Positions 8,206 through 63,112 of a DNA stretch of 64,000 bases are shown piece by piece; within the stretch, counting starts at the first letter, position 1; each line of letters starts with the position of its first letter. The stretch comes from Oscillospiraceae bacterium (lineage in GTDB: Bacteria; Bacillota; Clostridia; Oscillospirales; UBA929): NCBI GenBank assembly GCA_009782385.1, contig WRJE01000001.1:1-64000 (forward strand), in the 5' to 3' direction. The notes beneath the pieces are model-generated. The model was not told where the DNA came from and did not search any database. It worked only from the letters and a program-made list of their open reading frames with translations. The translations under genes were made by a program, and so were the position numbers.

Positions 8206-9279
8206 ATGAAATACCGTGTGTATGACGGCGTTGCCGCCGCCTGTCTGCTGACACTGCCCGCACTGCTCTATACGGGCTTGCGGGACTGTATTTCAATGTA
8301 CGGTACGGCGGCATGGCTGGCGATGCTCGCCGCCGTTCTGCCGCCGCTCCTGCTCTTCCCGTTTTTGGCTTTACTGATGAAGCGGCATGAGGGTAAAAAT
8401 CTTATCGAGGTATCGGCAAGTGTTATCGGAAGACCTCTGACCGCGCTGTACGGCATTGTTTTGGGCGCGTACTGCGCGTATCGCGCGGGCATACACGCGC
8501 GTGAGTGCGCCGAGATACTAAAGCAAAACGATTATAAGTTCATGCCCGTTTACGTCATTATAGGAGTTATTATTCTGTCCGCGCTTGTGATGAATTTTTA
8601 CGGACAGCGGACGATTTTCAAATGCGCGGGTTTTTTCTTCGCGCTGTTGATTATCGGCGTTCTGTTTGTAGTATTACTGGGATTGAATCGTTACGATTAC
8701 ACGCGCTTATTCCCCATCTTCGGCAATCATGAACGCTTCTTTGAATTTCCGCAGCCCGCTTCTATATATGACGGTGTGTTTCTTTTGGCTCTGTTCGCGC
8801 CCGGTTTCAAAAGCGCGCGCGCTTTCCGCGCTTCCGGTCTGCTGTCTGTGATTATCGCGGGAGTTGCCGCGGCGGCGTTATGCGCCTGTTATATTATGAT
8901 GTTCCCTATGAGAATCGCCGCCTCAACGGACTGCGGGTTTATTGAAGTGGGTAAATCCGCGTATTACAATCACTTTTTCTACCGTTTCGAGTCTCTGCTT
9001 CTGTTTTTCCTGATATTTTCGTCCGCGATGTATGTCACACTGGGAATCCTCGCGGCGAAGGAGAGCGTTTCGCGCTGTTTGAATATAAAGCACAACAAAA
9101 TCGTTGTAACCGTCTGCGCGGCGGGCGCGGGCGTTGCCGCGCTGATTCCGTCCGGGCTTGGCGGCGTACAACCGCATTTGGCGTTTTTACGCGATTACGG
9201 GTTGTTCTTTCTCGCGGGCGCACCGCTTGTGATACTGCTGATTTACGGCGTTAAGAGGTTATTCAAATGGGGAAAATAA
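8206..9279 (+). CDS. Spore germination permease, GerB family (GerAB-like)
   Basis: Polytopic, APC-superfamily-like, positioned between gerA- and gerC-type genes. Confidence 0.88.
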   Translation: MKYRVYDGVAAACLLTLPALLYTGLRDCISMYGTAAWLAMLAAVLPPLLLFPFLALLMKRHEGKNLIEVSASVIGRPLTALYGIVLGAYCAYRAGIHARECAEILKQNDYKFMPVYVIIGVIILSALVMNFYGQRTIFKCAGFFFALLIIGVLFVVLLGLNRYDYTRLFPIFGNHERFFEFPQPASIYDGVFLLALFAPGFKSARAFRASGLLSVIIAGVAAAALCACYIMMFPMRIAASTDCGFIEVGKSAYYNHFFYRFESLLLFFLIFSSAMYVTLGILAAKESVSRCLNIKHNKIVVTVCAAGAGVAALIPSGLGGVQPHLAFLRDYGLFFLAGAPLVILLIYGVKRLFKWGK

Positions 9280-10463
9280 TTAAAATCTGTTGTCTGTTAT
9301 TTGTTATCTGTTATCTGTTATCCGCTTGTTGGGACAAGACCGAGCTTGAGGACGCGACATATGTTATCCTTTTAGGGTTGGACAGGGCGGATTCTCAGGA
9401 CATCGGCGTAACCGTTGCGTTCCCGCTTAGTCAGCAAATGGGCGGCGACAAGGAGATGCAGTACACCGTCATGTCCGTAAAAGCTCCGAATGTGACGGAG
9501 GGTATCAATCTGCTAGCCGCAAAAATAGCGGGGTCGATGTCGCTTAACACCGTCAAAACAGTGATTATATCGCGCGAACTGGCTGAGAGCGGAGAGCTGA
9601 GACAGACACTTTCATCGCGGCAATTTATCGAAGTCAGAAACACCGCGAACATCTGCGTTGCGGATTGCACGGCGGCTGAATTTATTAAGGCGCGGATTGA
9701 AAATCCGCTCATTGACACACTAAGGCAGGAAGATTTACTGCTAGAGCAATCCTCCGGCAGTCTGTTATACAGACCTCTGGAACTGCTTGACTTAAAGGAA
9801 GCTGTTGAAACGGACGGGGCTTGTGCCTCGATGCTCGGAGGGGTTGTTAAGCAGAGCGGCGAAGATAATAATAATGATGACGACAAACAAGAAGATAAGA
9901 AGGGTGAAAAAGAAGCACCCATTGACGGCGACAATATAAAAATGCCTGTAAGAAGCGGCTATACGGCGGGCAAAGTGCCGATTAGGGCGGAAAACGAGAC
10001 GCAAATCTGCGGTCTCGCGGTTTTTAAGGACGGCAAGATGGTCGGAACTCTGGATTCGGACGAAGCGCAGACGTATACACTTCTGACACGCGGCAAAGCT
10101 CAGAAGACGCTCATAATGCGCGGCAACGGCGGCGACAGATTCTCGGTTTTGCTGCGCCCGGCGGGTCGGCGGCAAGTGTCATGCCGACTTGATGGCGGGA
10201 TTCTCGTGTTCGATATACGGCTTAATCTGCGGTATGAATCGGATTTACCCGGCATTGATGAAAATATTATCGCGGAGGCTGCCGCCGGGGAGGTACGCGC
10301 TCTGCTGAACAGACTTCAACGGGAGTTTGATGCCGATATACTGGGTTTTGAAGGCAAGGTAAGGCGGCATTTCGGCACGCAGAGAGTGTGGGACGAGTAC
10401 AGTAAAAACGATTGGTTCAGGGACGCGGTTATAAATGTGGAGATTTGCATAAAAAAACAGTGA
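9267..10463 (+). CDS. Ger(x)C family spore germination lipoprotein (GerAC-like)
   Basis: Lipobox LLSAC followed by WDKTELED; GerAC-type C-terminal domain. Confidence 0.9.
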   Translation: MGKIIKICCLLFVICYLLSACWDKTELEDATYVILLGLDRADSQDIGVTVAFPLSQQMGGDKEMQYTVMSVKAPNVTEGINLLAAKIAGSMSLNTVKTVIISRELAESGELRQTLSSRQFIEVRNTANICVADCTAAEFIKARIENPLIDTLRQEDLLLEQSSGSLLYRPLELLDLKEAVETDGACASMLGGVVKQSGEDNNNDDDKQEDKKGEKEAPIDGDNIKMPVRSGYTAGKVPIRAENETQICGLAVFKDGKMVGTLDSDEAQTYTLLTRGKAQKTLIMRGNGGDRFSVLLRPAGRRQVSCRLDGGILVFDIRLNLRYESDLPGIDENIIAEAAAGEVRALLNRLQREFDADILGFEGKVRRHFGTQRVWDEYSKNDWFRDAVINVEICIKKQ

Positions 10464-14610: not shown

Positions 14611-14662
14611 TGTAGGGACGACCTTTGGTCGTCCGCGGACGGTCGGGACGACCGTCCCTACA
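14611..14662. repeat. Bipartite inverted palindromic element
   Basis: TGTAGGGACGACCTTTGGTCGTCCGCGGACGGTCGGGACGACCGTCCCTACA. Confidence 0.9.
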
Positions 14663-21881: not shown

Positions 21882-24065
21882 ATGAATAAGCTAAATCCCC
21901 GTCAAATCGAGGCAATTACCGCGCCGGACGGTCCCGTACTCGTTCTCGCGGGCGCGGGCAGCGGAAAAACCACAGTCCTGATAGAGCGTATCGCGTATCT
22001 CATACGCGAACGCGGCGTACTCCCCTACGCGATATTAGCCATCACTTTTACTAAAAAAGCCGCCGAGGAACTGCGCTCACGGCTTACAAAGCAGCTCGGC
22101 ATCGGCGCGAACGATGTGTGGGCGTTCACGTTCCACGCCGCCTGCTCAAAAATACTCCGCCGCGACATCGAGCGGTTGGGTTACACCAAGGACTTCACCA
22201 TTTACGACACCGATGACAGCGCGCGTATCGTTAAGATGTGCCTTAATGATTTGCAGCTCGACCCCAAGCAGTTCAACCCAAGGGCGATGCACGCTTGTAT
22301 TTCCCGCGAGAAGAACGCCGATGTGCCGCCCTCGCGTTATGAGGAAAACTTCGGCGGCGGCAAGCAAATACAAGAAATTTACACCCTGTATGTAAAAAGA
22401 CTGCGCTTGAACAACGCGTTGGATTTTGACGATATACTGCTGAAAACCGTGGAGCTTTTCGAGAAAAACCCCGATGTTTTGGAGTTCTATCAAAGAAAAT
22501 TCCGCGCCCTGCTCGTTGACGAATATCAGGACACGAACACCCTGCAATATAAACTCTGCGCCATGCTTTCCGCAAAAAGCCGCAATATTTTTGTCGTTGG
22601 AGATGATGACCAGAGCATTTACCGTTTTCGCGGCGCGACAATCGAGAATATACTGAGCTTTGAAAAAGAATACCCCGATGCCACTGTTATCCGCCTTGAG
22701 CAAAACTACCGCTCCACACAGAACATACTTACAGCCGCCAACAATCTAATCGAAAACAATCTCGGGCGCACGGGAAAATCACTGTGGACGGATACGGGCA
22801 GCGGTCAGCCCATATCGTTGTGCCGCGCCGAAAATGACTACTACGAGGCCGACTACATAGCCGACTGTATTGAGCGGCACGTCAACGGCGGCGGCAAGTA
22901 CAGCGACATGGCGATTCTTTACCGCATAAACGCGCTGAGTAACCGTATTGAGGAGGCGTTAAGGCGGCGGAGCATACCCTATCGTGTGATAGGCGGCACG
23001 CGCTTCTTTGACCGGGCGGAAATCCGTGATATGCTGGCATATCTGCATATACTTAACAACCCCGCCGATGACTTGCGGCTCACACGTATCATCAACATAC
23101 CACCGCGCGGTATAGGAGACAAGACAATCGGGGGCGTTATCGCCGAGGCCGCCGCGAAAGGCGTTCCGATGATGGATATAATAAAACAGTCCGCTCACCC
23201 CGCGTTGGCTCGCTTTTACAAGATATATGAGAATCTCCGCGATTTGATAGATACCATGCCGCTGACAGAACTCTACGATACCCTTCTTGAAACTACGGGA
23301 TATGTTCGCGTTCTTAGGGAAAAGAACGACTTTGAATCTGACGGACGCGCGGAGAACGTCATGGAACTGAAGTCCACTATAAAGAAATTCGGTGACGACT
23401 TCGCGGAGGGTACACTGTCGGAGTTCTTGGAGAGCGTATCACTTGCCACGGATGTGGAAAACTATGACGCGGGCGCGAACGCCGCCGTCTTGATGACTAT
23501 ACACAGCGCGAAAGGTCTGGAATTTCCAACAGTTTTCATCGCCGGACTTGAGGAGGGTATATTCCCCTCCCTGCGCTCGCTCGACCCGATGGATTTGGAG
23601 GAAGAGCGGCGGCTCTGCTATGTCGCCATCACACGCGCGAGGCGGCAGCTTCACATCACATACTCGGCAAGCCGCACATTGTACGGGCAGTCCAATTACA
23701 GCCCCGTTTCACGCTTTATCGGGGAACTGCCGAATGAATGTGTCGAGAAAGCGGAACACGCGGTGAAAGCCGCGCCGTATGGTGATATGCGCGTTGAGGC
23801 GACAGTTCGGCGGACGACCGAAGGTCGTCCCTACGGGGTATCTTCCCAACGGGCGACCGGTAGCCGCCCCTACAGTGTGACACCCTCCCCGGAGGTGTCG
23901 TTTACCAAGGGTTCGACCGTCAATCACAAGGCGTTCGGGCGCGGCACGGTAACAAACGTGTCGCCGATGGGCGGCGACGCGCTGATTGAAGTGGCTTTTG
24001 ATACGGTCGGCACGAAACGGCTCATGCAAAAGACCGCGTCGGCGCATATGACGGTTGAAAGTTAA
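21882..24065 (+). CDS. pcrA: UvrD/PcrA-type ATP-dependent DNA helicase
   Basis: Walker A GAGSGKTTVL, VDEYQDTN, GDDDQSIYRFRGA, IHSAKGLEFPTVFIAGLEEG. Confidence 0.93.
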   Translation: MNKLNPRQIEAITAPDGPVLVLAGAGSGKTTVLIERIAYLIRERGVLPYAILAITFTKKAAEELRSRLTKQLGIGANDVWAFTFHAACSKILRRDIERLGYTKDFTIYDTDDSARIVKMCLNDLQLDPKQFNPRAMHACISREKNADVPPSRYEENFGGGKQIQEIYTLYVKRLRLNNALDFDDILLKTVELFEKNPDVLEFYQRKFRALLVDEYQDTNTLQYKLCAMLSAKSRNIFVVGDDDQSIYRFRGATIENILSFEKEYPDATVIRLEQNYRSTQNILTAANNLIENNLGRTGKSLWTDTGSGQPISLCRAENDYYEADYIADCIERHVNGGGKYSDMAILYRINALSNRIEEALRRRSIPYRVIGGTRFFDRAEIRDMLAYLHILNNPADDLRLTRIINIPPRGIGDKTIGGVIAEAAAKGVPMMDIIKQSAHPALARFYKIYENLRDLIDTMPLTELYDTLLETTGYVRVLREKNDFESDGRAENVMELKSTIKKFGDDFAEGTLSEFLESVSLATDVENYDAGANAAVLMTIHSAKGLEFPTVFIAGLEEGIFPSLRSLDPMDLEEERRLCYVAITRARRQLHITYSASRTLYGQSNYSPVSRFIGELPNECVEKAEHAVKAAPYGDMRVEATVRRTTEGRPYGVSSQRATGSRPYSVTPSPEVSFTKGSTVNHKAFGRGTVTNVSPMGGDALIEVAFDTVGTKRLMQKTASAHMTVES
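23811..23874. repeat. Two palindromic elements inside the uvrD/pcrA coding sequence
   Basis: CGGACGACCGAAGGTCGTCCCTACGG and CGGGCGACCGGTAGCCGCCCCTACA, in frame (RRTTEGRPYGVSSQRATGSRPYS). Confidence 0.85.
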
Positions 24066-24986: not shown

Positions 24987-25060
24987 GGGACGCGCGGGGG
25001 CGCGTCCCGTTGATAATAAACGTCATATTTTATGCGGACGACCAAAGGTCGCCCCTACGA
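24987..25060. repeat. Two dispersed palindromic elements
   Basis: GGGACGCGCGGGGGCGCGTCCCG; GCGGACGACCAAAGGTCGCCCCTACGA. Confidence 0.85.
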
Positions 25061-26560: not shown

Positions 26561-26625
26561 TGTTGGGGCGGATGGCAATCCGCCCGTTGTTTTTGGACGG
26601 CGCGCCGGGGTCGTTGCGCCCTACA
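26561..26625. repeat. Two dispersed palindromic elements
   Basis: TGTTGGGGCGGATGGCAATCCGCCCG; GGACGGCGCGCCGGGGTCGTTGCGCCCTACA. Confidence 0.85.
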
Positions 26626-26631
26626 ATGGGG

Positions 26632-27474
26632 TTACGATGAACCGCACAATTTTTTATAACTATCATATCTGCTTTGATATATGCCGCCGTCTCTGACGGC
26701 GTTTATAACGCCGCAGTCCGCACCCTCTCCGATATGAGCGCAGTCGCTGAACCTGCACGAATAACCCTCAAATTCGGGGAACATATCCTTAATATCCCGC
26801 TTGTCTCCCAAGTCTAAATCGTCAAACGCGGAGAAACCGGGCGTGTCGGCAAGCCATGTATCCTCTCCCATCTTGAACAGCTCCACGTGGCGTGTGGTAT
26901 GTCTACCGCGCCCGAGCCGCTCGCTGACCTCCCCTATCGGCATATTCGCTTCCGGAAGCAGAATGTTTAATATACTGGACTTCCCTACCCCCGAATGCCC
27001 CGAAAAAGCCAATATTTTACCCCTAATTGCTTCCCGCAGTTCGTCAATCCCCTCTTTAGCCGGAACGGCGGTGCGGACAACGGTGTACCCAATGCTCGCG
27101 TACATCTCCGCTATACCGGAGGTATCGCCGATGTCGCTCTTGTTCAAACAAAGAATGGGCGTGACCCCTTTTTGCAGAGCCAAGCCCAATATCTTGTCAA
27201 TCCACAGCGTTCCGCTGACAGGCGGCGCGATACTGGCAACCATAACCAGCGCGTCCAAGTTAGCGACCGGGGGGCGCGTAAAAACATTCTTGCGCGGCAG
27301 AATCTCCTCAAGCCGCCCCTCGCCGTTTTTTACGGTTATTCTTACCCTATCGCCCGGTAACGGGGCGATTCCGTCCAAACGGAAGCGTCCCCGCGCCTTG
27401 CAGGTGACCGTCTCGTCTCCGTGGGCGACATAATAGAATCCGCCGATACCGCGCGTTATAATCCCCTCTGTCAT
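26632..27474 (-). CDS. rsgA: Ribosome small subunit-dependent GTPase A
   Basis: Circularly permuted GTPase motifs LCLNKSD, GHSGVGKSSILN, DTPGFSAFD; zinc-binding C-terminus. Confidence 0.93.
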   Translation of the reverse strand: MTEGIITRGIGGFYYVAHGDETVTCKARGRFRLDGIAPLPGDRVRITVKNGEGRLEEILPRKNVFTRPPVANLDALVMVASIAPPVSGTLWIDKILGLALQKGVTPILCLNKSDIGDTSGIAEMYASIGYTVVRTAVPAKEGIDELREAIRGKILAFSGHSGVGKSSILNILLPEANMPIGEVSERLGRGRHTTRHVELFKMGEDTWLADTPGFSAFDDLDLGDKRDIKDMFPEFEGYSCRFSDCAHIGEGADCGVINAVRDGGIYQSRYDSYKKLCGSS

Positions 27475-30291: not shown

Positions 30292-31292
30292 TGTTTCACA
30301 TCCTTCGACTGTTTAAGCTGACCGCACGCGGCATTAATTCCATGCCCCAGTTTGCGCCTTACAGTGACCGACAGCCCGCTCTTGCCCAGTATCTCAGTGA
30401 ATCTTTTTATGTTCCGTGACGGCTTAAAGGGTTTCCCCTTTACGGCGTTATACTCTATTATATTCACATGACCGCCTTTTAGTTTTTTTGTCAGCATTTC
30501 CGCCTGTTCCGCGCTGTCGTTAATGCCGTCAAGCATGATGTATTCATATGATACGCGCCGTGACGTAATCCTAAAGTATTCTTCCGCCGCTTTAATTACG
30601 GCGTTAACGCCGTACTTCTTGTTAATCGGCATTATCCGCGAACGGGTTTCGTCATCGGGCGCGTGAAGCGACACGGAGAGCGTCACGGGGATTTTACTTT
30701 TCGCCAACTCAATGATTTTATCGGGTATCCCGCACGTTGAAACGGATATGTGTCTCGCGCTCATGTTTCCAACGCCCGTAACATTATGAAGAAACTTGAT
30801 AGCTTCTCCTAAATTATCTAACGGCTCACCCATGCCCATCAGCACGGCTCTTGAAATTTCACAGCCGGACTCGCGCTTCAAGCCCATAAGCTGTCCCATC
30901 ATTTCACCCGAGGTCAGATTCCTGACAAGCCCGCTCTCCCCTGTCGCGCAGAACGCGCAGTTCATCCTGCATCCTATCTGGGTTGAGAGACACGCGCTGC
31001 CGCCGTATTTGTAGCGCATAAGCACGGATTCGGCAGTGTTATCATCGGCAAATTTCCATAAAACCTTAACCGTACCGTCTTTTGACGTTTGAACCTTCAA
31101 CGGTTCGGGAAGTTTAACAGACGCGATTTCAGTCAATTTCTCCCGCATGGGTTTAGGAAGTGCGCTCATTTCGGAAAAATCCGCGTCTCCCGCGTACATA
31201 CGCTCACAAATCTGTTTCGCGCGGTACTCCGGCCACCCCTGCTCTTTGACGAACGCCTTGATTTCGTCAAAAGTCATGTCCCAAAAATTCAT
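30288..31292 (-). CDS. rlmN: 23S rRNA (adenine2503-C2)-methyltransferase RlmN
   Basis: Radical SAM CxxxCxxC (CRMNCAFCATG), STCGIPDKI, SLHAPDDETRSRIMPIN. Confidence 0.94.
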   Translation of the reverse strand: MNFWDMTFDEIKAFVKEQGWPEYRAKQICERMYAGDADFSEMSALPKPMREKLTEIASVKLPEPLKVQTSKDGTVKVLWKFADDNTAESVLMRYKYGGSACLSTQIGCRMNCAFCATGESGLVRNLTSGEMMGQLMGLKRESGCEISRAVLMGMGEPLDNLGEAIKFLHNVTGVGNMSARHISVSTCGIPDKIIELAKSKIPVTLSVSLHAPDDETRSRIMPINKKYGVNAVIKAAEEYFRITSRRVSYEYIMLDGINDSAEQAEMLTKKLKGGHVNIIEYNAVKGKPFKPSRNIKRFTEILGKSGLSVTVRRKLGHGINAACGQLKQSKDVKQ

Positions 31293-32617
31293 TTTATCTT
31301 CCTCAGCTTCGCGTAGAAGAACCCGTCAATATCATGTTCCGCGAACGGTGTGAGGAAAAAACCTTCCGGAGCTGAACCATACGGCGTTTCAAACGGCTCA
31401 AGCTCAAAATCCGTATGAACTTTCAGAAAATCACGCACGACATCTTGATTCTCGCGGCTAAGTACCGTACAAGTCACATAGACCATTCTCCCGCCCGGTG
31501 ACACATAACGCGAAAGGTTGTTAATGATACTCCTCTGAATCTCAGCCAACGGCTCTCCGAAGCTCGGCTCTTTGAATCGTATGTCCGGCTTCTTGCGGAT
31601 TATTCCCAAGCACGAGCAGGGTACATCCGCCAAAACCAAGTCGAATACCCCGTCAAACACGGGATTATGTTCTCTCGCGTCAACCACGTTACATTGTACA
31701 CCATCCATACCGTGTTTGGCAAGTGTTTCTTTCAATTCCATTACTTTATACGGATATTTATCACAGCAAACAAGCTCTATCCCGCCGCCGGAAGCGTGAT
31801 AGAGCATGACGCTTTTGCCGCCGGGGGCGGCGCAAGCGTCAAGAACACGCTCGCCTTTTTGGGGCGCGGCTATTTCAACGGCAAGCCGCGCGGCATTGTC
31901 CGCGACAATAAACGCGCCGTTTTTATATCCGGGCAAATCGGCGATGTTGCCCTTGTATGTGAACTGTTCCCATTGGACGGGCGGCCAATGACCGCCCCTA
32001 CAATCCGTTATCTGTTCACTGCGGTCGGACGGCCAAAGGCCGCCCCTACAGGCACCCGCTTCAATCAATTTTTCTCTGTATTCCGGTTTGAGCAGCTGCA
32101 AGTACGCCGGGGGCGCGGTGTTGTTGAACTTCATCAGTTCTACGGCGCGTTCGGGGAACTCCTCCGTATAGAGCTTTACAAGCCAGTCAGGATGCGAATA
32201 CTCAACACCCGGGTCATCGAATACCGGCGCGTTCTCCCACTTCGCCGCGTTTCTCAAAACGGCGTTAATAAACGACTGCGCCCCTTTGTTTACTTTCAGA
32301 TACTTACCCAGTTCAACGCTCTGGTCTGCCGCCGCAGATTTGGGAATCTTATCTAAGAAAAGCATTTGATACACCCCAAGGCGCAGTACGTCGCGAACCT
32401 GCGGCTGTACCTTGCGTTTCTCGCATATCAAATCTATACAGGCATCGAGCTTGCGGTAATTCTGTATCACACCGTAAACAAGCTGTGCCGCCAACGCTTT
32501 ATCGCGCGGCGGCAACCCGGCGGCACGCCTGTTAAGCGGCTTATCCGCGCCCGTTTGCGGACGGGTGCGGAAATCCATCAGGGCAAGCAGGGCGGCGCGT
32601 CTCGCGTTATTGTTCAC
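31289..32617 (-). CDS. rsmB: 16S rRNA (cytosine967-C5)-methyltransferase RsmB
   Basis: NusB-like N-terminal region, DACAAPGGKS, DVPCSCLGIIRKKPDIR. Confidence 0.92.
   Translation of the reverse strand: MNNNARRAALLALMDFRTRPQTGADKPLNRRAAGLPPRDKALAAQLVYGVIQNYRKLDACIDLICEKRKVQPQVRDVLRLGVYQMLFLDKIPKSAAADQSVELGKYLKVNKGAQSFINAVLRNAAKWENAPVFDDPGVEYSHPDWLVKLYTEEFPERAVELMKFNNTAPPAYLQLLKPEYREKLIEAGACRGGLWPSDRSEQITDCRGGHWPPVQWEQFTYKGNIADLPGYKNGAFIVADNAARLAVEIAAPQKGERVLDACAAPGGKSVMLYHASGGGIELVCCDKYPYKVMELKETLAKHGMDGVQCNVVDAREHNPVFDGVFDLVLADVPCSCLGIIRKKPDIRFKEPSFGEPLAEIQRSIINNLSRYVSPGGRMVYVTCTVLSRENQDVVRDFLKVHTDFELEPFETPYGSAPEGFFLTPFAEHDIDGFFYAKLRKIK
31975..32051. repeat. Two palindromic elements plus AT-rich linker inside the rsmB coding sequence
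   Basis: Minus strand: TGTAGGGGCGGCCTTTGGCCGTCC...AACAGATAACGGATTGTAGGGGCGGTCATTGGCCGCCCG. Confidence 0.9.
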
Positions 32618-41408: not shown

Positions 41409-41834
41409 CTACTTTTCTATGATATTCTCGTCATCTTCACCCTGCGGCGGCACTAACGGTTTCAGCGGCGCGGGTGTGGGTGTCGGTACTTCAATCGGTT
41501 CGGGCGTTACCTCCGGTGTGGGCGTTGGTTCATCCTCCGGTTCAGGCGTGGGTTCGGGGTCGTCTTCAGACGGCGCGCCGGGGTCGTCGCGCCCTACATC
41601 GTTGTTATCCGGATTATCACTGTTATCTGTATTGGACGGCGCACCGGGGTCGTCGCGCCCTACGTCCGGTGTAACCATCGGGTCAACTAATATCGTGTTG
41701 GGCGGCGGGTCGATTTCACTCGCCGCGTTCAAGCCGCTAAGGGCGGCGGCAATAGAGACCGCGCCCAACGCGACAGATACTACTAAAATTGCCAGAACGA
41801 GCATTCCGCGTCCTGTTATCTTATAATGCCCCAT
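41409..41834 (-). CDS. Membrane-anchored Pro/Glu/Asp-rich protein containing two in-frame copies of a dispersed repeat
   Basis: N-terminal TM; DVGRDDPGAPSNTDNSDNPDNNDVGRDDPGAPSEDD, then PTPEP-rich tail. Confidence 0.6.
   Translation of the reverse strand: MGHYKITGRGMLVLAILVVSVALGAVSIAAALSGLNAASEIDPPPNTILVDPMVTPDVGRDDPGAPSNTDNSDNPDNNDVGRDDPGAPSEDDPEPTPEPEDEPTPTPEVTPEPIEVPTPTPAPLKPLVPPQGEDDENIIEK
41570..41663. repeat. Two palindromic elements plus linker inside the 41409-41834 coding sequence
   Basis: ACGGCGCGCCGGGGTCGTCGCGCCCTAC and GACGGCGCACCGGGGTCGTCGCGCCCTAC, both near-identical to 26595-26625. Confidence 0.9.
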
Positions 41835-47221: not shown

Positions 47222-47271
47222 CGTAGGGGCGGCTATTAGCCGCCCGCGGACGACCAATGGTCGTCCCTACA
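47222..47271. repeat. Bipartite inverted palindromic element overlapping the 3' end of the O-antigen ligase-like gene
   Basis: CGTAGGGGCGGCTATTAGCCGCCCGCGGACGACCAATGGTCGTCCCTACA. Confidence 0.9.
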
Positions 47272-49572: not shown

Positions 49573-49638
49573 CCGTCCCCACCCATTGTTAATTGTTAAT
49601 TACCATTATTAATTGTTAATTGTTATCTGTTAATTGCA

Positions 49639-51125: not shown

Positions 51126-51175
51126 TGCAGGGGCGGCTATTAGCCGCCCACGGACGACCAAAGGTCGCCCCTACA
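51126..51175. repeat. Bipartite inverted palindromic element
   Basis: TGCAGGGGCGGCTATTAGCCGCCCACGGACGACCAAAGGTCGCCCCTACA. Confidence 0.9.
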
Positions 51176-51215
51176 TAAAATTAATTGTCGCATTGTTAAT
51201 TATAATTGTTCATTG

Positions 51216-52418
51216 TTAATTGTTAACTGTTAATTGTTTAGTGTCCATTGCTATTACCAATTCCTCATTAGTCGGCACAACCAGTGTTTTCACACGCGCG
51301 GATGCCGCCGAGAGGTCGCCCTCACCCCGGCATGATTGGTTCTTTTCTGCATCAACTTCAATGCCCAGAAACTCAAGCCCCTCTAATATAATAGCACGCA
51401 TACGGACATGATTTTCCCCCACGCCTGCGGTAAACACCAAAACATCAATCCCGCCCATAGATGCCGCCAACGCGCCTATGCTCTTTCTGACACTGTGTCC
51501 GAATATGCTTATCGCGAGCTTCGCGCGTTCGCTGCCTTTTTCGGCTTGGTCGAACAAATCCCGAAAATCGGATGCGCCACCCGACACACCGAGCATACCC
51601 GACTTTTTATTAAGAACATCCGTCACCTCTTTAACGCTCATACCGCGCTGTGAGCAGAGGTACTCCACAATCGCGGGGTCAATCAGCCCCGAACGAGTTC
51701 CCATGGGAACGCCCTCAAGCGGCGTAAGCCCCATAGTTGTATCAACTGAACGCCCACCGTCTATCGCCGCGAGCGATGAACCGTTGCCCAGATGGCACGT
51801 AATTATTTTAAGTTCCCCGATTGGCTTGTTCAACATTTCGGCGGCGCGAGCCGCGACAAAGCGGTGAGACGTGCCGTGAAAGCCGTAACGGCGTATCTTG
51901 TTCTCCGTATAATATTCATAAGGCAGGGCGTATATATACGCCTTAGGCGGCATCGTCTGATGAAATGACGTATCAAAAACGGCAACCTGAGGAACGCCCG
52001 GCATAACCTCAGCACAAGCGCGTATGCCAACCAGATTAGGCGGGTTATGAAGCGGGGCAAGCGGCACACAAGCCTCGATTGCCGCAATTACCTCATCGGT
52101 TATAAGCGCGGACTCTGAGAACTCCTCGCCGCCGTGGACGACACGATGCCCGACCGCGCCGATTTCATTCATATCTTTAATAACGCCGTACTCATTATCG
52201 GTAAGCAAAGCAACAACGGCTTTTACGGCTTCGGCGTGATTGTTAAGCGGAGTAAGTTTATCATAAGTTTTGCCGTTTCCGGAATGCTTAACATGACCGT
52301 CAACACCGATTCGTTCACATAATCCCTTTGCCAAAACGCTGTTGTCGTTCATCTCTATCAACTGGTATTTCAGCGAGGAACTGCCCGCGTTTATTACAAG
52401 TATATTCATACCGCACAT
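51216..52418 (-). CDS. ackA: Acetate kinase
   Basis: ILVINAGSSSLKYQL, FHGTSHRFVA, GVGENHVRMR; ATG ILVINAG at residue 4 is the likely start. Confidence 0.94.
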   Translation of the reverse strand: MCGMNILVINAGSSSLKYQLIEMNDNSVLAKGLCERIGVDGHVKHSGNGKTYDKLTPLNNHAEAVKAVVALLTDNEYGVIKDMNEIGAVGHRVVHGGEEFSESALITDEVIAAIEACVPLAPLHNPPNLVGIRACAEVMPGVPQVAVFDTSFHQTMPPKAYIYALPYEYYTENKIRRYGFHGTSHRFVAARAAEMLNKPIGELKIITCHLGNGSSLAAIDGGRSVDTTMGLTPLEGVPMGTRSGLIDPAIVEYLCSQRGMSVKEVTDVLNKKSGMLGVSGGASDFRDLFDQAEKGSERAKLAISIFGHSVRKSIGALAASMGGIDVLVFTAGVGENHVRMRAIILEGLEFLGIEVDAEKNQSCRGEGDLSAASARVKTLVVPTNEELVIAMDTKQLTVNN

Positions 52419-52540: not shown

Positions 52541-52565
52541 CGGGCGGCCAATGACCGCCCCTACA
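52541..52565. repeat. Palindromic element at the 3' end of the ClpP-like gene
   Basis: CGGGCGGCCAATGACCGCCCCTACA. Confidence 0.88.
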
Positions 52566-61871: not shown

Positions 61872-61911
61872 GGCGGAATATCCGTAGGGCGCAACGCCCT
61901 CGGTGCGCCGT
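61867..61911. repeat. Palindromic elements at the 3' end of truA
   Basis: CCGTAGGGCGGAATATCCGTAGGGCGCAACGCCCTCGGTGCGCCG. Confidence 0.85.
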
Positions 61912-61951
61912 CTCAAACAACATATTTACTTCACAAAAAGGAAAAAATCAA

Positions 61952-62989: not shown

Positions 62990-63112
62990 GGGCGGCCGTC
63001 CCGTCCGCCCGCCGAAATTCCCCCGTCCCCCGTAGGGCGCAACGCCCTCGGTGCGCCGTCTCAAATAACGCGACCCCATCCCCCGTAGGGGCGGTCGTCC
63101 CGTCCGCCCGCG
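62985..63112. repeat. Cluster of three palindromic elements after the acyltransferase gene
   Basis: CGTAGGGGCGGCCGTCCCGTCCGCCCG; CGTAGGGCGCAACGCCCTCGGTGCGCCG; CGTAGGGGCGGTCGTCCCGTCCGCCCG. Confidence 0.88.

Follow-up and report, generated by a model that had tools for sequence, protein, structure and literature searches.

In-frame GTAG REP elements in the rsmB gene of an Oscillospiraceae bacterium and inverted REP pairs within RAYT genes

The rsmB gene, which encodes a 16S rRNA methyltransferase, was located on the minus strand of the analysed window, a stretch of 64,000 nucleotides from an Oscillospiraceae genome (contig WRJE01000001.1). The product was identified by NCBIfam model PRK14902 (E 7e-92), the Pfam domains NusB and Methyltr_RsmB-F and the PDB entry 1SQF (E 4e-44). 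Both catalytic cysteines (in DVPCS and VTCT), which were invariant across the aligned RsmB sequences, were kept. Within the RsmB ORF, positions 31975-32051 of the minus strand read CTGTAGGGGCGGCCTTTGGCCGTCC-GACCGCAGTGAACAGATAACGGATT-GTAGGGGCGGTCATTGGCCGCCCGTCC and contained two GTAG REPs separated by a spacer (Table 1). In each of them the GTAG tetranucleotide was placed at the foot of a perfect 7-8 bp hairpin, in agreement with the 6-13 bp stem and short loop that characterise GTAG REPs. The DNA minimum free energies were -8.5 and -7.7 kcal/mol (z of approximately -3.3), and folding indicated that both elements are still intact hairpins. The 23-mer of REP 1 was identical to REP 1 of purL, and approximately 33 exact copies of REP 2 were present genome-wide. 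An earlier sequence-only reading had placed two palindromic elements in frame inside rsmB, in the linker preceding the catalytic domain; the sequence, the ORF, the hairpin folding and a copy number beyond chance all bore this out, and the frame was kept. The same reading had regarded AACAGATAAC as the linker between the elements, but the actual linker comprises 25 nt and thus more than AACAGATAAC alone. AACAGATAAC was also considered as a recurrent part of a composite element and rejected, as only 2 of its 27 copies were found near a REP.

Table 1. REP elements and the genes that carry them in the window.
Feature	Position	Strand	Remarks
rsmB, 16S rRNA (cytosine-967-C5)-methyltransferase, host gene of the insertion	31292..32617	minus	442 aa
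GTAG REP 1 of rsmB, GTAGGGGCGGCCTTTGGCCGTCC	32027..32049	minus	in-frame peptide CRGGLWPS, aa 190-197
25-nt spacer between the rsmB REPs	32002..32026	minus	contains AACAGATAAC; encodes DRSEQITD
GTAG REP 2 of rsmB, GTAGGGGCGGTCATTGGCCGCCC	31979..32001	minus	in-frame peptide CRGGHWPP, aa 206-213
uvrD/pcrA helicase, second REP-decorated gene of the window	21882..24062	plus	UvrD-helicase E 2e-90, PcrA tudor domain
REP in frame in uvrD	23812..23834	minus	RTTEGRPY, aa 644-651; linker before tudor domain
Second REP of the uvrD head-to-tail dimer	23851..23873	minus	RATGSRPY, aa 657-664
Convergent REP pair, 2-nt spacer (GC)	14612..14661	.	no listed ORF >=120 aa over the pair
Single REP	25036..25058	minus	no listed ORF >=120 aa over the REP
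Convergent REP pair, 2-nt spacer (GC)	47223..47270	.	no listed ORF >=120 aa over the pair
REP	51152..51174	minus	outside predicted coding regions
Exact copy of rsmB REP 2	52542..52564	minus	outside predicted coding regions

The RsmB loop was compared with that of 29 relatives. The segment between EAGA and LPGY spanned 38 residues, whereas 28 of the relatives had 20-22 and the nearest congener (G002) had 16; palindrome-free orthologues with a loop of equal length, which would have spoken against an insertion, were not encountered. The extra segment was absent from the site in all 29 aligned relatives, and the homologous region of E. coli RsmB (1SQF) aligned with gaps at the insertion point. The expectation that the alignment would display a longer loop was therefore confirmed, but the predicted clean insertion of about 25 residues was not seen: the net gain was 16 residues in comparison to the family, the length encoded by two 24-nt units (T plus REP), and 22 in comparison to the congener. 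Between GA and Y[KR]GNI, 31 residues were counted here versus 9 in the congener, so a local replacement of native residues is possible. Residues that separate the palindromes (the inter-REP spacer) or follow them represent either native loop or spacer. The single-sequence AlphaFold model of RsmB had a mean pLDDT of 39, too low to place the loop, which probably lies at the surface. A search of the genome-contig collection with RsmB returned no relative.

The REP family was evaluated across the window and the draft genome (104 contigs, 88% complete). An 11-mer seed with one mismatch allowed gave 15 matches in the window versus 0.7 expected, and a strict REP pattern gave 296 matches in the genome, including some nested double matches of one site, versus none for the reversed-pattern control. 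A total of 309 REP-like hairpins were detected in 1.48 Mb of genome; 24 had coding flanks on both sides, and approximately six of these were judged to be chance hairpins and left uncounted. With a stricter pattern, 190 REP copies were recovered, 25 of which fell deep within predicted ORFs and 5 close to ORF ends; the other 160 had no predicted ORF over them, consistent with the numerous and chiefly extragenic copies typical of GTAG REPs. REPs were under-represented in coding DNA, with approximately 13% of them inside coding regions, compared with 88% of the sequence being coding. Among 41 close REP pairs in the contigs of this genome, head-to-tail pairs were common (18), unlike in most published GTAG families, and the exact 2-nt GC spacer was frequent in convergent pairs. 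The window additionally contained two other repeat families, one AT-rich (ATTGTTAATTGTTATCTGTTAATTG; 9273-9317, 49592-49636 and 51192-51236) and one with the ends GCGCCCTAC and the starts GTAGGGCGC (26586-26634, 41559-41673, 61882-61921 and 63030-63069), the latter being possibly another REP type.

The rsmB gene was not the sole target, as at least a dozen REP-decorated genes, rsmB included, could be identified in the genome. The identified hosts were rsmB, uvrD/pcrA, purL, trpC, tsaD, wecB, polC, an E1 dehydrogenase and a GatA-like amidase, together with M15 and M23 peptidases, SpoIID, a radical SAM protein and a TIM-barrel protein; the REPs of SpoIID and the TIM-barrel protein are close to the predicted N-terminus and could be start-site errors. 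Alignments indicated lengths of 45 for the REP-bearing purL loop versus 26-27 in orthologues, 34 for the E1 dehydrogenase linker versus 15-19 in most relatives, and 19 for the wecB loop versus 12-15 in orthologues. Several reading registers, and both orientations of the elements, occurred among unrelated proteins (CRGG.., VGA.., R..DDRPY and ..PPL.), which argues that no common peptide has been selected. Two purL haplotypes of the same assembly (L031 and L247, on G000:C55 and C52; 96% DNA identity) both carried the REP cassette. Downstream of the insert they differed by 29 synonymous and 6 non-synonymous changes, and the resulting dN/dS of approximately 0.06 indicates that the insert-bearing purL is still under purifying selection. 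REP-derived peptides were also observed in the interdomain linker of the fused E1 dehydrogenase in two genera (L071, 14282-16819, and L268), apparently as separate insertions.

Weak Y1_Tnp matches led us to RAYT genes in the genome and its relatives, and profile searches found such genes in 26 of 118 genomes (the studied genome and 25 of 117 relatives). Their products matched the NCBIfam model NF047646 (REP_Tyr_transpos) at 64-72 bits, below the curated cut-off of 80 bits, and matched the E. coli TnpA-REP protein (4ER8) by sequence. The model fold was nearest to REP-bound RAYT 4ER8 and, in line with assignment to RAYT (TnpA-REP) proteins, the HUH motif and single tyrosine were present. REPs were found within the coding sequence of many RAYTs. 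An inverted matching pair was located in frame in 56 of 118 RAYT ORFs, drawn from these genomes plus wider public genomes, the forward copy being approximately 41 codons before HUH and the inverted copy approximately 14 after it. RAYT-internal REPs had the opposite orientation in 1 and 2 genes, versus 62 and 76. The REP similarity was 0.94 within a gene versus 0.61 between genes and was not reached in any of 2000 permutations, a figure that is not a strict probability because the RAYT genes are related by descent. The RAYT of Oscillospiraceae RGIG6242 (L144) carried rsmB REP 2 exactly, with the inverted partner one mismatch away. In its structural model, both REP-encoded stretches were modelled as coil, the first of them with low confidence, and its genome contained the RAYT pair plus one related hairpin and nothing more of the RsmB-type REP. 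The RAYT of congener G002 carried the second purL REP exactly. No RAYT with an RsmB-type REP was found in the studied genome (88% complete), and the wider genome scan found the cognate RAYT solely in L144, so that the association of the rsmB element with a RAYT gene is drawn from another Oscillospiraceae genome. An exact-gap search of 396 genomes of the order found no RAYT with an exact inverted RsmB-type pair.

The rsmB cassette is very probably a head-to-tail dimer of GTAG REPs, that is, mobile hairpins which were inserted into a variable loop of RsmB and whose encoded peptide is tolerated. As such, the elements would be short, non-autonomous and mobile, and RAYT/TnpA-REP most likely copied them in the form of single-stranded DNA, their movement presumably being driven by RAYT. 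The dimer would have entered a loop of variable length that separates the N-terminal part of RsmB from the methyltransferase domain. Since the 24-nt unit (T plus the 23-nt REP) equals eight codons and is stop-free in five of six frames, rsmB stayed open. The same process would have hit at least a dozen other genes, with gene-breaking insertions presumably purged by selection. The REP-encoded peptide is probably neutral, and RsmB with the insert is presumably made and active.

Among the alternatives, an action of the hairpins in rsmB mRNA or DNA (stability, ribosome pausing, a gyrase or terminator-like site), with the coding change as a by-product, appears unlikely. Both hairpins fold well, and effects of REPs on mRNA stability, termination and supercoiling have been proposed for other bacteria (PMC3733652). 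However, neither position nor orientation was conserved among the decorated genes, most copies were outside genes and no relative shared the extra segment. We regard it as slightly less likely still that the peptide was recruited for RsmB function (RNA contact or regulation) and kept by selection. The insert is situated beside the catalytic domain and both hairpins are intact, but intact hairpins are also expected of recent insertions; unrelated proteins use the same DNA in several registers and in either orientation, and 29 relatives manage without the insert. An assembly artefact joining unrelated repeat copies within rsmB, conceivable in a draft of 104 contigs at 88% completeness since assemblers can be misled by short repeats, is very improbable, as the REPs are only 23 nt long, both flanks continue one RsmB in frame and an equivalent purL cassette was present in two separately assembled haplotypes.

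The rsmB elements have close counterparts among published systems. GTAG REPs were defined by a short GC-rich hairpin with the tetranucleotide GTAG at its foot; they are present in high copy number and mostly intergenic, some are in frame in ORFs, often as dimers that encode 20-30 residues, and the intragenic targets include repair genes such as those of UvrD type (Di Nocera et al. 2013, PMC3733652). TnpA-REP cleaves REPs at CT, with GTAG involved (PMC8266576). The tag, hairpin, copy number, in-frame dimers and UvrD-type targets are common to that superfamily and to the elements described here. The sequence-only reading overlooked that the elements belong to this RAYT-associated superfamily, which had already been described. 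The GTAG repeats listed in the published survey come from Proteobacteria, Cyanobacteria, Chloroflexi and the PVC group; neither Firmicutes nor Clostridia turned up when its text (PMC3733652) was searched, whereas the present host belongs to the Clostridia. The analogy in principle with the Rickettsia palindromic elements (RPEs), also drawn previously, was upheld, since in both cases palindromic repeats are inserted in frame into genes for functional proteins that are unrelated to one another. RPEs include longer elements of approximately 150 nt, and the short intragenic ones of R. conorii are CGTC-tagged (PMC3733652, PMC10969869); the rsmB elements carry GTAG and are set apart from the RPE family by this description of the tag. 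Subclass 2.4 RAYT/TnpA-REP genes contain REPs in a peripheral region of their own gene with the frame undisturbed (Quentin et al. 2018, PMC6006769). The RAYTs studied here resemble them as HUH-Y1 transposases with in-frame REPs in their own gene, a likeness by feature and not a subclass placement. The inserts of subclass 2.4 are generally located between HuH and Y, whereas here the inverted pair was found in loops at two nearly constant positions, one on either side of HuH.

REPs within genes, RAYT genes included, have already been published (PMC3733652, PMC6006769). Our literature search, which did not include most subscription papers or the main RAYT classification, found no published report of Firmicutes or Clostridia cases or of a fixed co-varying inverted pair. 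A more tentative proposal, which we advance with considerable doubt, is that REPs in this clade are carried as coding sequence: RAYTs would hold an inverted pair of their own REP in frame, in two loops around HUH, the two copies co-varying within each gene, which would keep the REPs compatible with translation and make them mobile elements able to spread into housekeeping ORFs and between genes. REP/RAYT-type elements thus go beyond extragenic repeats and alter proteins in these presumably gut-dwelling Clostridia, and orthologue pairs with and without inserts are now available for direct tests. The inverted co-varying pair in RAYT genes additionally offers a natural substrate-enzyme pairing for studying REP recognition by RAYTs.

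RAYT loci with their own inverted REP pair included L063 (2543-3025, on G000:C48) and members of L083-L210. In another RAYT of the studied genome (L113, 1261-1965, on G000:C20), the second REP site contained an expansion of approximately 70 residues. A strong Y1 transposase match on G000:C10 was rejected as a RAYT, since it overlaps the end of an IscB-like ORF; the locus (L059, 200-1866) was read as an IS605-type unit in which an IscB-like RNA-guided nuclease gene, named by sequence motifs only, overlaps a Y1 TnpA gene.
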